Source: Geminocystis herdmanii PCC 6308
Lineage (GTDB): Bacteria > Cyanobacteriota > Cyanobacteriia > Cyanobacteriales > Cyanobacteriaceae
Direction of reading: 5' to 3'
NCBI RefSeq assembly: GCF_000332235.1
Contig: NZ_CM001775.1
Location: 303,630-367,629 of the forward strand
Length of the DNA stretch: 64,000 nt
The notes below the pieces were generated by a model, which was not told where the DNA came from, searched no databases, and saw only the letters and a list, made by a program, of their open reading frames with translations. Numbering within the stretch: the first letter of the stretch is position 1; each line of letters begins with the position of its first letter. The translations under genes were made by a program, and so were the position numbers. Shown piece after piece: positions 38,850 to 47,555 of this stretch.

Positions 38850-40220
38850 ATGACTGAATCCAATCTCAAAAAAACATGGTTAGCCTTATCTTCCGAAGCC
38901 ATTGAAGGTGATATACTAACCCAATTTATTATTCCTGCCTTATTACCATCATGGAATTTTGAAGGTAATGAGTTTTGTATCCAATGTCCTACGGGTAAAG
39001 GTGCACAGAAAGTTGATTTAGCCGTCAGAAAAAACACCACTACCGATATTTTTGCTCACAGTAAAACGAATCCATTTTTGATTATCGAATTAAAAAGAAG
39101 GATGCTAGATATTTCTACAGGTAGTAAAAGTTATCATAATGCAGTGTTACAACTAAAGCGTTATTTAGCTCCCAGTGCTACTAATTGTAAAACTGTTCGT
39201 TGGGCAATTTTAACTAATGGCAATTATATTCAACTTTTTCGCCGTCATGGGAAAGTTGTTTATCCTTATACAGAAAATATCCTGTTAACTCTTGATAATA
39301 TTGATGAGAAAATAGCACTGATCAAAAAATATATTGATCAACCCGAAAAAGCCTTATCAGTTGCCTTGTATAACAATAAAGGAGGAGTAGGCAAAACTAC
39401 AACAACTATTAATTTAGCAGGAGTTTTATCATTACCTGCCCCTTTTGGCTTTAATAAAAAAGTGTTAGTAGTAGATTTTGATCCCAATCAAAAAGATTTA
39501 TCTGATTTACTTGATTTTAAAACCCCTTCCCTCAAATTATCAGAATTTTTTTTAGACTACAAAAATCAAAATATTAAAGATGTGATTTCTACCTATAGAC
39601 TAAAAGCTAATAATAAAGTATTCGGCTTTGATATTATTCCCGCTGATGATCAGTTTTTGGAAATGGATCGAAATACTATTAATTCTTTAGGTATTGGCAC
39701 TTTAAGAAAATCTTTATCGAGTTTGAGAAATATTTATGATTATATTCTCATTGACTCTCCCCCCGGAAATGAATTTTTTAATAAAGATTCGATCGCAGCT
39801 TCTGATGTGGTGCTGATACCTTCTAAACATAATGGCATTGCCTCCTTCAAAAATGCCGCTTCAGCCATTACCAAAATTTTTCCGTCTATAGGAGAAAAGC
39901 GTCGCACCTATCAAGCAGAATTAGGAAATCCTTTTCCTTTACCTATTTTCTTTAATGGAGAACAAATTAGTAGTGCTGCCAAACAACAAGCACAAAAAGC
40001 TATTTCAGATATTATTAAACAGGCTAAAATAGAAGAACAAATGGACTTAACACCCTTTTTCTTTCCTAAATATACCAATGCTCAAAAAAATTTAGAAATA
40101 TTTGAATTGCCTAACTATGCTCATATTGCCTCTGCATCATTTTCTAAACGTCCTGCGGTTTTTACCAGTAAAAAAGCCCGTGAATATTATACTGATTTAG
40201 TAAGGGAATATTTTATCTAA
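38850..40220 (+). CDS. HSDR_N-type nuclease domain fused to a ParA/MinD-type ATPase
   Basis: 456 residues with two clear parts. Residues about 15-155 show the type I restriction HsdR_N/RecB-like nuclease signature: Glu19 region EGDILTQFIIP, KVDLAV (Asp56), IIELKRR (Glu80-x-Lys82), LQLKRY (Gln101-x3-Tyr105) and LTNGNYIQLF. Residues about 168-450 are a ParA ATPase: deviant Walker A NNKGGVGKTTTT (Lys177, Lys182), VVDFDPNQKDLS, Walker B IILIDSPPG-like YILIDSPPGNEF, and a late SKHNGIASF. ParA proteins normally segregate plasmids or position complexes; the nuclease domain is not a usual partner. The stop TAA overlaps the start of the ParB-like gene by one base (TAATG). I do not know a described system with this architecture. 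Confidence 0.85.
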   Translation: MTESNLKKTWLALSSEAIEGDILTQFIIPALLPSWNFEGNEFCIQCPTGKGAQKVDLAVRKNTTTDIFAHSKTNPFLIIELKRRMLDISTGSKSYHNAVLQLKRYLAPSATNCKTVRWAILTNGNYIQLFRRHGKVVYPYTENILLTLDNIDEKIALIKKYIDQPEKALSVALYNNKGGVGKTTTTINLAGVLSLPAPFGFNKKVLVVDFDPNQKDLSDLLDFKTPSLKLSEFFLDYKNQNIKDVISTYRLKANNKVFGFDIIPADDQFLEMDRNTINSLGIGTLRKSLSSLRNIYDYILIDSPPGNEFFNKDSIAASDVVLIPSKHNGIASFKNAASAITKIFPSIGEKRRTYQAELGNPFPLPIFFNGEQISSAAKQQAQKAISDIIKQAKIEEQMDLTPFFFPKYTNAQKNLEIFELPNYAHIASASFSKRPAVFTSKKAREYYTDLVREYFI

Positions 40221-40924
40221 TGAAACAAGAAATCGGAACATTATTACATCTTTATTTAGATGAAATTGAATTAAAAGAACCCATAGAAACCCATCCTTTT
40301 TTAATTAATAATGGGGCTAAAGCAATTAATGAAGCAAAGGGAAGAAATTGGATTCCTTTAGTTGTGAAACAAATTGATTCAGATCAATATGAAGTAATTG
40401 CCAATAGTTTTATTTTTGTTTGCGCCCAAGAAGCAGGGCTTAAAAAAGTTTGGTGTTTGATTGCCGATGACTCTCCAATAACGGAAGAATCAGCGAAAAT
40501 TTTGGCACAAGAAAAAATAGCAAAAATTGATTTAGCGACTGCTTCAAGAGAGGAAATAAAATTAGGACTTGACTATTTAATTAAACGTTCTATTAATCCT
40601 TTAGTTGGGGTAAATATAGCCACTGCTACAGAAAGAATCGATCGAGCTAATCGCAGTTTATGGAAAGAAAATTTAGCAAAAATTCCTGATTTAAAATGTG
40701 GAATTACTAAGGGGAAAAAACTAGATATTTTTAAAGAAGTATTTTATATTAAATCTTCAGTTTCTTCAGGAGAATCTGAAGCAAAATCTAATGAAATAGA
40801 AGAAATAAACGCTCAAGATTTTAATAAATTAACATTAAAAACTTTAAAAGCAATGGCAAAAGAAAAGGGTTATTCTGGTTATTCAAAAATGAAAAAACAA
40901 GAACTTATTAAGTTGTTATCATAG
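40220..40924 (+). CDS. ParB-like protein with C-terminal Rho_N/SAP-type domain
   Basis: 234 residues. Residues about 40-95 (NWIPLVVKQIDSDQYEVIAN, then AQEAGLKKVWCLIAD) follow the ParB/Srx N-terminal pattern, without the usual GxxRxxA box being convincing. A helical middle region with RANRSLWKENL follows, then a low-complexity linker and a terminal Rho_N/SAP-like module (residues about 203-234: LTLKTLKAMAKEKGYSGYSK) expected to bind nucleic acid. There is no ParB-type HTH. Coupled to the upstream ParA-nuclease gene, it is likely its partner or adaptor. Confidence 0.7.
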   Translation: MKQEIGTLLHLYLDEIELKEPIETHPFLINNGAKAINEAKGRNWIPLVVKQIDSDQYEVIANSFIFVCAQEAGLKKVWCLIADDSPITEESAKILAQEKIAKIDLATASREEIKLGLDYLIKRSINPLVGVNIATATERIDRANRSLWKENLAKIPDLKCGITKGKKLDIFKEVFYIKSSVSSGESEAKSNEIEEINAQDFNKLTLKTLKAMAKEKGYSGYSKMKKQELIKLLS

Positions 40925-43444: not shown

Positions 43445-43702
43445 TAATTAGGGTTTGTCTCATAGTCTTTTGATGAAGGTAGGAGATAGGAGTTAGGAGA
43501 CAGGAGATAGGAGAAATACTGAAACATCAAGGTTTTGATGCTGTTAATAGATAGAATGAGTATAGTTGTATTTTAAAAAATAAGATTAAAAGTGTTGAAT
43601 TTTTGAATAAAAATCCTTAAAACTGCACACTTTTTGGTTAATGTATTATGCCTAAACTGTTGATTTTAATAGCTTTCTGATTTATTCAGCAAACCCTAAT
43701 TA
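43445..43702. mobile_element. 258-bp inverted-repeat element with TAATTAGGGTTTG ends
   Basis: TAATTAGGGTTTG (43445-43457) and CAAACCCTAATTA (43690-43702) are perfect 13-bp inverted termini. Inside are CATAGTCTTTTGATGAAGG and AGGAGAYAGGAG-type heptamers. Single ends of this family (GGGGTTGCTGAAAAAGTC, TTTTGATGA) recur near 3384-3425, 33382-33412, 47663-47695, 50370-50398 and 52829-52860. No coding capacity. The stretch 43270-43444 before it holds nothing recognisable. Confidence 0.8.
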
Positions 43703-43801
43703 ATGTTAAAACCTTATTTTGTCGTGATTTTAACATATAATTTGAGTTCAATCCTCGTCAAAGGCTTTTTATACTGGTGTACAGTGTCCAATTAATTATT
43801 A

Positions 43802-43879
43802 TCGATCGAGCAGATAGCAGAAGCATTAAACTTAGAGATAGAATTAGTCAAAAAAGTAGCTCAATCATCACAAAACTAA
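43802..43879 (+). pseudogene. C-terminal fragment of a lost gene (EQIAEALNL tail)
   Basis: A 25-codon open stretch, SIEQIAEALNLEIELVKKVA, ending QSSQN and TAA, with stop codons directly before it. It resembles the tail at 28372-28452 and the C-termini of cyanobacterial Rpn/PD-(D/E)XK-type transposase-like proteins. It has no start codon and is probably debris. Confidence 0.4.
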
Positions 43880-43956
43880 GGTATTGTTACTGAATTTTTT
43901 TGGAAATATCCAATTATTTTGATTTATTTCATCAGATTTTTCCCGTAAAATGAAAA

Positions 43957-45876
43957 ATGTTCCAAAAAAAATCTGATGCCATGAGTAAGCTAGTCGTGTT
44001 AAATTTGGGTGCGGGAGACTTAAATAAAGGATTCCCTTATATTACCGCTCAATTAAGGACAGATAATGGCGGATTTGAGCAATTTACTGGTAGTTTGCCC
44101 CCGAATCCAGAATTAGCAACACTCTACTATAATTGGCAAACCCTTTATCAAGCCTTACATCAGTGTTTTGATGTAGCTAGACGCAGACTATTTGAAGTGA
44201 AAGGGCAAGGATTAACTAATATTTCTGTCAAAGAATTTCAAGAACTTTGTCAAGAAATTGAAACAAAATTTAATCTTTGGCTAGAGTCTTCCAGTTTTTC
44301 CCCCATCGATAAAAAATTACGCACTAAATTAACTCCTGATGAAGAAATACAAATAATTGTGGAAACTAAAGATATTATTTTACATGGTTTTCCTTGGCAT
44401 TTATGGCATTTTTTAGAAGATTATCAACAAGCAGAAATAGGCATTAGTACCCCTGAATATAGTTTAATAAATATTAGTAAAAAATCGAGAAATAAGTTAA
44501 GAATATTAGCTGTGTTAGGCCATAGTGAAGGTATAAATATAGAACTCGATCGAGCCTTAATTCAAGAAATTAAAAATGCAGAAATTACCTTTTTAGTTGA
44601 GCCTAAATCAGCAGAATTTCATCAAAAATTATGGGATGAAGAAGGATGGGATATGTTATTTTTTGCAGGGCATAGCCACACGGAAAATCATCAAGGAATT
44701 ATCTTTATTAATCCGAAAGAAAGTCTAACTATTAAAGAATTAAAAACTGCTTTAAATCAAGCCATTAAACAAGGATTAAAACTAGCTATATTTAACTCCT
44801 GTGATGGTATCGGATTAGCCCAAGAATTGACTAAATTAAACATTCCCCAAGTCATTGTTATGAGGGAAGGAGTACCAGATTTAATTGCCCAAGAATTTTT
44901 GAAATATTTTTTAACCGCTTTACAACAAAATAAATCCGTTTTTTGTGCTTTAAGGGAAGCCAGAGAAAGATTACAGGCATGGGACAAAGACTTTCCGGGA
45001 GGAAGTTGGCTACCGATGATTTGTCAAAATTTATCAACTTTTAATCTGGAAATAAAATTACAAGAAAGTCTTAAAATTTTTCCTAATTTATCCGTTGATT
45101 TTTGGCATAAAAATAATGATATTGATTTAGAAAATACTATTTTTTATAAAAAGATAAAAGAGACAAATTTATTCGTAAAAATAATCGATATTACTACCTT
45201 AGATGTTGACGTGATCGTCAGTTCCGATGATAATTATTTAAAAATGGGTGGTGGTGTTTCCGCTTCTATATTGAAAAAAGGAGGCAATAGTATTAAAGAA
45301 CACGCCTTAAAATTTGCACCGATAAAATTAGGGGATGTAATCATGACAAGTGCTGGTAATTTGTCAGCAAAATATGTTTTTCATGCCGCAGTTTTAGACT
45401 ATGAATTATATTATCATGCTCGATCGAAAAAACCAACTATTAATATTGTTCAAGAAGTCACAAAAAAATGTTTAAAACTAGCGGAGTCAGTTAATGCCCA
45501 ATCCATTGCTTTTCCTGCTTTAGCTACGGGTGTAGGAGGACTTCCTCCTGAACAATCTGCTCTTGGTATCATGATTGAAATTATGAAGGTTTTGAAATCA
45601 AATACTTCTCTGAAAACTATTATTATTGCTCTTTATGGACATCAAAATAGTAATGTAAATACCATCAAAGAAATTAAAAATCATTTTTTGAATCAAGTTT
45701 CACACTTTATTGACATTTATCAACAAATGGAAACTCGTTATGAATTATTAAAGGATTTAGAAAATATTTTTAGTAGTTATGATATTAAATTAGCCAGTGA
45801 TATAACATCTCAATATCAAGAAAAATTAACGGAAATTATGAATCAATATATAGATAATATAAGTAATGGAGAATGA
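43957..45876 (+). CDS. CHAT-domain protease fused to a macrodomain
   Basis: 639 residues; Met9 (MSKLVVLNL) is an equally good start. N-terminal segment with VLNLGAGDLNKGFP and a helical part is typical for cyanobacterial CHAT proteins. The caspase-like CHAT domain (about 130-360) carries the putative catalytic pair His239 in FFAGHSH and Cys282 in FNSCDGIGLA. A macrodomain follows (about 403-568): DITTLDVDVIVSSDDN, MGGGVSASILKKGG and AFPALATGVGGLP, with SSDDN in place of the usual NAAN, so ADP-ribose binding may be altered. A helical tail of 70 residues ends the chain. CHAT proteases cut partner proteins in defence and cell-death systems; macrodomains read or erase ADP-ribose. No partner gene is adjacent. 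The stop codon lies inside a heptamer array. Confidence 0.85.
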   Translation: MFQKKSDAMSKLVVLNLGAGDLNKGFPYITAQLRTDNGGFEQFTGSLPPNPELATLYYNWQTLYQALHQCFDVARRRLFEVKGQGLTNISVKEFQELCQEIETKFNLWLESSSFSPIDKKLRTKLTPDEEIQIIVETKDIILHGFPWHLWHFLEDYQQAEIGISTPEYSLINISKKSRNKLRILAVLGHSEGINIELDRALIQEIKNAEITFLVEPKSAEFHQKLWDEEGWDMLFFAGHSHTENHQGIIFINPKESLTIKELKTALNQAIKQGLKLAIFNSCDGIGLAQELTKLNIPQVIVMREGVPDLIAQEFLKYFLTALQQNKSVFCALREARERLQAWDKDFPGGSWLPMICQNLSTFNLEIKLQESLKIFPNLSVDFWHKNNDIDLENTIFYKKIKETNLFVKIIDITTLDVDVIVSSDDNYLKMGGGVSASILKKGGNSIKEHALKFAPIKLGDVIMTSAGNLSAKYVFHAAVLDYELYYHARSKKPTINIVQEVTKKCLKLAESVNAQSIAFPALATGVGGLPPEQSALGIMIEIMKVLKSNTSLKTIIIALYGHQNSNVNTIKEIKNHFLNQVSHFIDIYQQMETRYELLKDLENIFSSYDIKLASDITSQYQEKLTEIMNQYIDNISNGE

Positions 45877-45909
45877 AGAATGGAGAATGGAGAATGGAGA
45901 ATGAAGAAT
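45868..45909. repeat. GGAGAAT heptamer array at the CHAT-macro stop codon
   Basis: Six units of GGAGAAT/GAAGAAT begin within the last three codons of the CHAT-macro gene, and the array supplies the TGA stop. The same unit follows minE. The gap to 46160 holds only a few more such units (ATTTTCC type near 46130). Confidence 0.8.
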
Positions 45910-46160
45910 TAAATTAGAGTGTTAGATTTATTCATAAAAATTATAAGCAAAGGCTCATGAAATTTAGAATAATCGCTTTAGCAAATTTAAACGATAAGCC
46001 TTGAGATTGCTTCATGTCGATAGGGATGAATCAACGATGCTAAGTCAGATAATTCTCATTAGACTTCTCCAAAAATTAAAATCGAAATCATTAATTTTAT
46101 ATAGTTTATTATTATTAATTGTTAATTTTCCATTTTCCATTTTCCATTCTCAATTTTCCA

Positions 46161-47555
46161 TTAATTTAGCTCTCTTACATCGGAGACTTTACCATTAATA
46201 GCGGCGGCGACAACCATAGCAGGGCTCATTAATAATGTGCGCCCTTGGGCTGATCCTTGACGACCTTTAAAGTTACGATTAGAGGATGATGCACTAATTT
46301 GATCTCCTTGTAATTTGTCAGGATTCATTGCTAAACACATAGAGCAACCGGGCTCGCGCCATTCAAAACCCGCATTCAAAAAGATTTCGTGTAATCCTTC
46401 GGCTTCGGCTTCTTGTTTTACTCTTTCTGAACCGGGTACGACAAAGGCTTTTACATTATTGGCTACTTTATGCCCTTGTGCCAGTTTCGCCGCTTCTCTT
46501 AAATCGCTAATTCTTCCATTAGTACAACTACCAATAAAGCATACATCGATCGATGTGCCTTTGATGGGTTGCCCCGGTTGCAGTTGCATATATTTAAAGG
46601 CTTCGATCGCAATCTCTTTGTCATTTTCTGGTAAAGTTTCAGGCATGGGTAAAGATTCATTGATACCGATACCCTGACTAGGAGTGATTCCCCATGTTAC
46701 CGTAGGTTCAATGTCACTGGCATTGAAGGTGACAATATCATCATATTCGGCATCGGCATCACTACGGATACTTTCCCACCATGTCACCGCTTCTGCCCAA
46801 TTCTTGGGGGCAAAATCTCTACCTTTGAGATAATTGTAGGTGACTTCATCGGGGTTGATATACCCACAACGAGCGCCTCCTTCGATCGACATATTACAAA
46901 CTGTCATGCGTTCTTCCATGTTCATATTCTCGAAGGTTGTACCAGCGTACTCATAGGCATAACCCACACCGCCATTTACCCCTAATTTGCGGATAAGATG
47001 AAGGATAACGTCTTTAGCATATACTCCCGTAGGTAAAGCTCCGTTTACCTCAATTTTACGCACTTTTAACTTAGTTAACGATAGGGTTTGAGAGGCTAAC
47101 ACATCTCTTACTTGGGATGTACCGATACCAAAGGCGATCGCACCAAACGCTCCATGGGTGGAAGTATGAGAGTCACCACAGGCGATCGTCATACCCGGTT
47201 GAGTCAAACCTTGTTCGGGAGCAATTACATGGACAATACCTTGATTCCCAGAGTTAGTATTATAAAATTTAATACCGTTTTCCTTAGTATTATTTTCTAA
47301 GGCTTGAATCATCTCCTCTGCTAAAGTGTCGGCAAATGGACGAGCTTGATTTTCTGTGGGTACAATGTGATCTACGGTAGCAACAGTTCGATCGGGAAAA
47401 AGTACTTTAAGATTACGTTCTCTAATCATAGCAAAGGCTTGAGGGCTAGTTACCTCATGTATCAAATGTAAGCCTATAAATAATTGAGTTTGTCCTGATG
47501 GTAGAGTACCAACGGTATGTAAATCCCAGACTTTATCAAATAACGTTCTTTTACT
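46161..47555 (-). CDS. leuC: 3-isopropylmalate dehydratase large subunit
   Basis: Isomerises 2- and 3-isopropylmalate in leucine synthesis as a heterodimer with LeuD. About 464 residues from [14 protein letters not shown]; a longer frame to 47591 would add twelve. Aconitase-type 4Fe-4S ligands are all present: [10 protein letters not shown] and [12 protein letters not shown] near the C-terminus. [12 protein letters not shown] and [13 protein letters not shown] are typical of the family. leuD is not adjacent, as often in cyanobacteria. Confidence 0.97.

Follow-up and report, generated by a model that had tools for sequence, protein, structure and literature searches.

The building blocks of the protein described here are already known: both CHAT proteases and macrodomains have been described, as has the design in which a caspase-like peptidase stays constant and its C-terminal domains are swappable. 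TPR-CHAT (Csx29), which belongs to the type III-E Craspase, is an autoinhibited protease that is switched allosterically (PMC9729208). In the EACC1-caspase two-gene conflict system, a constant N-terminal caspase-superfamily peptidase is combined with many alternative C-terminal domains (PMC7159879), and the MoxR-vWA-iSTAND ternary conflict systems include fusions of caspase-like peptidases with iSTAND (Kaur et al. 2020, PMC7159879; PMC8195603), with macrodomains and GUN4 listed among the attached domains (PMC7159879, PMC8195603). No published description of a CHAT-macrodomain fusion was found in the open-access literature.

The protein analyzed here is encoded in a 64,000-nucleotide stretch of cyanobacterial DNA, hereafter the window. 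With TPR-CHAT/Csx29 and eukaryotic separase it shares the CHAT/separase fold (aa 9-361) and the His/Cys dyad. Unlike TPR-CHAT/Csx29, it is solitary, has no TPR match and no neighboring CRISPR gRAMP/Cas7-11 gene, and carries a macrodomain at its C-terminus. The cyanobacterial CHAT-CHASE2, CHAT-nSTAND1-WD40, and CHAT-TPR proteins have an N-terminal CHAT module 40-55% identical to that of the window protein but a different C-terminal module. This arrangement of a constant N-terminal peptidase with a varying C-terminus is also that of the EACC1-caspase system, although no EACC1-type gene adjoins the window gene (its flanks are, by gene identity, Mem_trans and leuC) and its peptidase belongs to the CHAT/separase branch. 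MacroH2A-like and TTHA0132-type macrodomains have the fold, Asp411, the loop glycines, and the TG loop in common with the C-terminal half, whereas the window protein has SSDD in place of NAAN, Ser435 at the GVD position, and a fused protease. Finally, a MoxR-vWA-iSTAND-type operon of genome G540 contains the relative closest to the window macrodomain and also encodes a CHAT-iSTAND protein, while MoxR, vWA, and iSTAND are absent among the neighbors of the window gene.

Domain organization and predicted structure

The CHAT-macrodomain gene is an intact open reading frame of 639 aa at 43957..45876 of the window, on the forward strand like all protein features below, as established from the ORF listing and its translation. 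Since the N-termini of relatives correspond to Met9, the true start is probably the ATG at 43981, giving a protein of 631 aa. The initial annotation had read this frame as a CHAT protease and a macrodomain in a single polypeptide, and both halves were recovered by profile: Pfam CHAT (PF12770) matches aa 114-343 (E 3e-14, 53.5 bits against a curated cut-off of 24) and Pfam Macro (PF01661) matches aa 425-535 (E 1e-21, 77.5 bits against a curated cut-off of 22). The separase/caspase-like CHAT module, supported by Pfam, VIA-align, and dN/dS, occupies aa 9-361 (43981..45039) and is followed by a probably flexible linker (aa 363-390; 45043..45126), the macrodomain (aa 391-566; 45127..45654), and a C-terminal helical hairpin (aa 567-639; 45655..45873) that aligns with a longer CHAT-macrodomain form described below.

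The AlphaFold2 model of the ORF product has a mean pLDDT of 81 and a pTM of 0.57, and the mutual placement of the CHAT and macrodomain halves is not fixed in it. Its N-terminal CHAT module is well predicted, the linker is disordered-looking (mostly pLDDT 28-43), the macrodomain pocket loops (425-432, 480-490, and 524-527) are of low confidence, and two helices (567-607 and 611-636) form the terminal hairpin. When the halves were compared with solved structures using VIA-align, the CHAT part (about aa 9-361) matched separase 5fc2 (Z 23.4, 302 residues, 3.5 A) and Csx29/TPR-CHAT 8eey (Z 21.1), and the macrodomain part (about aa 391-588) matched macrodomain 5lcc (Z 20.2, 178 residues, 2.6 A), with the macrodomains of macroH2A1.1, PARP9, and PARP14 also among the best structural matches. 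Among macrodomains of solved structure, TTHA0132 is the closest in sequence (E 9e-26). The region 403-568, which had been named as the macrodomain from the letters, is thus a macrodomain by both Pfam and the model (Z about 20), and the protein is confirmed to be a caspase/separase-like protease module joined to a macrodomain.

A constant CHAT module with varying C-termini

The proposed catalytic pair, His239 in FFAGHS (44671..44673) and Cys282 in FNSCDG (44800..44802), does not vary across 31 aligned relatives, so that the loss in homologs that would have undermined it was looked for and not seen. For the CHAT module, dN/dS is 0.17 relative to the 84%-identical paralog L002 and 0.19 relative to L008, indicating that it evolved under purifying selection. 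With the dyad intact, protease activity is predicted for this module.

Relatives were detected at E <= 1e-20 in 94 of 386 genomes of the phylum, and nearly all match about aa 8-360 only. Beyond this region their C-termini consist of CHASE2, nSTAND1, or TPR, as determined by direct reading and by Pfam on examples, and L002 and L008 carry a membrane-spanning segment followed by a tail with no Pfam match. The CHAT module is thus the constant part, and what varies is the C-terminal module, which in most cases is a sensor or scaffold. The genome that holds the window contains seven CHAT matches, one of which (G000:C1:268618-269532) lies inside a 2923-aa open frame.

The pairing of CHAT with a macrodomain has a composite history. 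A tree of the CHAT domains places the window protein with L002 and L008 (support 100/100) and gives the long CHAT-macrodomain proteins a clade of their own (100/99), while the CHAT-macrodomain protein of G540 stands apart. A tree constrained to unite the CHAT domains of all CHAT-macrodomain proteins, a group named after the unconstrained tree had been viewed, is worse by 146 log units (p-AU 3.8e-45), and a single ancestral CHAT-macrodomain protein was ruled out for the CHAT domain on this basis. The macrodomains of these same proteins fall with the SSDD subfamily described below, with moderate support (82/91). The disagreement between the two trees implies that CHAT either joined such macrodomains repeatedly or was swapped under them. 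Within its family, a single genome was found to have the short form whose pocket is intact.

The long sister form, a protein of 822-835 aa, runs from CHAT through a degenerate macrodomain and a helical region to a C-terminal domain with a relationship to phage Gp157. It is present in all genomes sampled from two genera of the family as well as in G401, from another family (L003:1501-4002, forward strand; also L028, L031, L037, L038, L040, L043, and L146), and is vertically kept; its members in family f1 have lost the pocket residues. The C-terminus of L028 matches Pfam Gp157 at 4.5e-6 and 27.2 bits, just under the cut-off of 28.6, and that of L003 matches a Mu-Gam-like PHROG at 6.6e-6. A profile of this C-terminal region also matches free-standing proteins, and the Gp157 cut-off was passed by four of the five tested. 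The region is poorly modeled (pLDDT 50) and its PDB sequence matches are helical or designed proteins, so the Gp157 identity rests on profiles only. On contig 6 of G145, one free-standing Gp157 protein adjoins a Rad52-like gene (L130:755-1926), itself a sub-threshold match, and the pair resembles a module for phage recombination. A role of the long-form Gp157-like domain as a sensor of phage recombination is speculation.

A macrodomain subfamily with an SSDD motif

At the position of the canonical NAAN motif, the macrodomain reads SSDD (aa 422-425; 45220..45231). The substitution noticed in the initial annotation is therefore real, but the motif is S422-S423-D424-D425 rather than SSDDN, the N being merely the next residue. 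As the NAAN position varies in other macrodomains too, SSDD does not exclude membership in the macrodomain family. Related macrodomains were collected by searching 388 genomes of the order, fetching the loci, and calling their domains, and 11 of the 12 subfamily members that were aligned read exactly SSDD, the twelfth reading TSND instead; motif decay, or an oddity of a single gene, was ruled out accordingly. A 12-member profile scores the subfamily at 140-266 bits (about 16 of 388 genomes) and other macrodomains at or below about 109, a gap that is evidence for the grouping but comes from a profile that recovers its own building members and thus characterizes the set without being an independent test of it.

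SSDD-type macrodomains are fused to a STAND-like AAA_35 module (L149), AAA_35-GUN4 (L150 and L151), AAA_35-WD40 (L153), Ser/Thr kinases (L154 and L155), kinase-FGE (L152), GUN4 (L147, from G540), and CHAT with a zinc ribbon (L148, a second CHAT-SSDD-macrodomain protein, also from G540); one lies in a short ORF (L156). A 963-aa protein at L164:4365-7256 brings together a macrodomain, SLOG, GUN4, pentapeptide repeats, and two receiver domains.

Catalysis in MacroD-type hydrolases relies on the Asn of NAAN and the Asp of GVD. In the window protein these are replaced by Asp425 and Ser435, whereas most of Asp411, the loop glycines, and the TG loop is preserved. A pocket that is largely preserved while the MacroD catalytic residues are absent fits a binding domain lacking MacroD-type hydrolysis. 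The earlier suggestion that the altered motif may indicate a different ligand is strengthened by the loss of these residues and by the sharing of SSDD across the subfamily, and conservation of the motif over unrelated fusions predicts a common non-canonical ligand.

Genomic setting and links to conflict systems

The gene had been described as a single gene without an adjacent trigger, which agrees with its flanks: dprA and a Mem_trans transporter gene lie upstream, and leuC, identified by reading, lies downstream on the opposite strand. These three are also the immediate neighbors in the place where a gasdermin-activating protease pair would have its gasdermin gene. A synteny common to the family was ruled out, as leuC and the Mem_trans gene occupy separate places in relatives. 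Upstream of the gene is a MITE-like repeat of 258 bp, bounded by perfect 13-bp terminal inverted repeats (43445..43702), of which at least 18 further copies exist in the genome, and an element with 41-nt inverted arms of GGAGAATG-type repeats (45872..46162) starts within the CHAT-macrodomain stop codon. Fragments of related genes occur in four genomes, several of them with stops, including a macrodomain remnant in G109 that is 56% identical, and the paralog L002 carries an in-frame stop. Plasmid and phage carriage were both considered and rejected: among the matches listed, those to plasmids covered CHAT only, the single phage match was weak and restricted to the macrodomain, and no record covered most of the query. 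Scans for promoters and terminators gave chance-level results only.

Two further features of the window lie nearby. Positions 43800-43880 read EQIAEALNLEIELVKKVAQSSQN, which resembles the end of an Rpn-type nuclease/transposase and is possibly a remnant. At 38850-40924, a ParA-like ATPase with an HSDR_N-like N-terminus is followed by a ParB_N/Rho_N protein, a partition- or restriction-like chromosomal pair.

A link to conflict systems comes through the closest relative of the window macrodomain, which is 52% identical and is encoded in G540 directly after a vWA gene. The run in which it lies (L196:6977-14668 and L197, contig C72) encodes a MoxR-type AAA+ ATPase, vWA, CHAT-iSTAND, SSDD-macrodomain-GUN4, and JAB-ThiF, and by comparison with the published systems matches the MoxR-vWA-iSTAND ternary type. 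This is guilt by association for the relative rather than for the window gene. The same contig also carries, at a distance of about 24 kb, the CHAT-macrodomain gene of G540, amid other CHAT and DUF1822 genes. Within 30 kb past the run, more CHAT genes (with kinase, pentapeptide, and macrodomain modules) and DUF1822 genes were observed. For the window gene itself, which belongs to no named defense system, none of the PADLOC defense families matched at E up to 1, and a search of the genome for TIR_2 domains came up empty; a genome-wide iSTAND search was empty, but its control was equally silent. The proposal that this protein is an immune effector thus gains a conflict association via its relative, but not from its own locus, where PADLOC matches are absent and the neighbors are of housekeeping type.

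Proposed function and alternative explanations

We consider the window protein to be a solitary caspase-like conflict or cell-death effector allosterically gated by its nucleotide-binding macrodomain, a reading to which we assign a probability of about one half. The ligand, gating, substrate, and immune role are all parts that we infer. The CHAT module would be the output, a cysteine protease kept inactive until a signal comes, and the C-terminal macrodomain would be the input, because the same place holds CHASE2, nSTAND-WD40, or TPR in sister CHAT proteins. The conserved-SSDD pocket would bind a nucleotide, most likely derived from NAD or ADP-ribose, and this binding, passed on through the linker and the helical tail, would switch the protease on or off, allowing it to cleave a host protein during a stress, conflict, or cell-death response. 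More broadly, bacterial defense or cell-death circuits probably employ this macrodomain repeatedly as an input module. In the vWA-linked relative from G540, however, the macrodomain occupies the effector position, and input may thus be the wrong role.

In the main alternative, the macrodomain would not switch the protease but direct it, reading ADP-ribosylated proteins or nucleic acids (e.g., marks left by phage ADP-ribosyltransferases) and bringing the protease to them, so that it would act as an address. Such targeting is compatible with the flexible linker of the model, with a pocket that resembles binding-only macrodomains in keeping most of its features without the MacroD catalytic residues, and with the structural matches to macroH2A1.1, PARP9, and PARP14. 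We nevertheless consider it unlikely, as the same subfamily is found on kinases and STAND-like ATPases, which need not be addressed in this way, and no ADP-ribosyltransferase partner was seen. The lack of this partner also counts against a built-in hydrolase that strips ADP-ribose from its own protein or from the signal and thereby ends the response. Some macrodomains without MacroD residues do hydrolyze ADP-ribosyl bonds via other residues, and yet with Asp425 and Ser435 in place of the NAAN Asn and the GVD Asp we regard this activity as very improbable here.

A regulator that couples NAD or tetrapyrrole/redox status to proteolysis, with no conflict role, would account for the attachment of subfamily macrodomains to GUN4, kinase, and WD40 modules and for the ordinary genes around the window gene. 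It appears improbable given the patchy spread, pseudogenes, and domain shuffling, all more typical of conflict genes, and the position of one relative in a ternary conflict operon. These signs of turnover could alternatively reflect a transient chimera, produced by paralog shuffling beside mobile repeats and with no lasting function: repeats flank the gene on both sides, only one genome of the family has it, stop-containing fragments occur in four genomes, L002 has an in-frame stop, and the CHAT and macrodomain trees disagree. The full-length frame, the intact dyad and SSDD motif, the CHAT dN/dS of about 0.17, and the second CHAT-SSDD-macrodomain protein in G540 make this improbable in our view.

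The window protein is small and intact, and it brings together two elements of immunity and cell death, namely a protease of the separase/caspase-like kind and a pocket of the ADP-ribose type. If the effector reading holds, it would represent a direct switch from an NAD-derived signal to a protease in bacteria, and would provide a biochemical route to the ligand. As a tentative and rather doubtful extension, the SSDD macrodomains of cyanobacteria may be receptors for an unrecognized second messenger derived from NAD. A single ligand-binding module would then have been built time and again into caspase-like proteases, STAND-like ATPases, Ser/Thr kinases, and ternary conflict systems, with the window protein as the minimal one-gene form, messenger in and proteolysis out.
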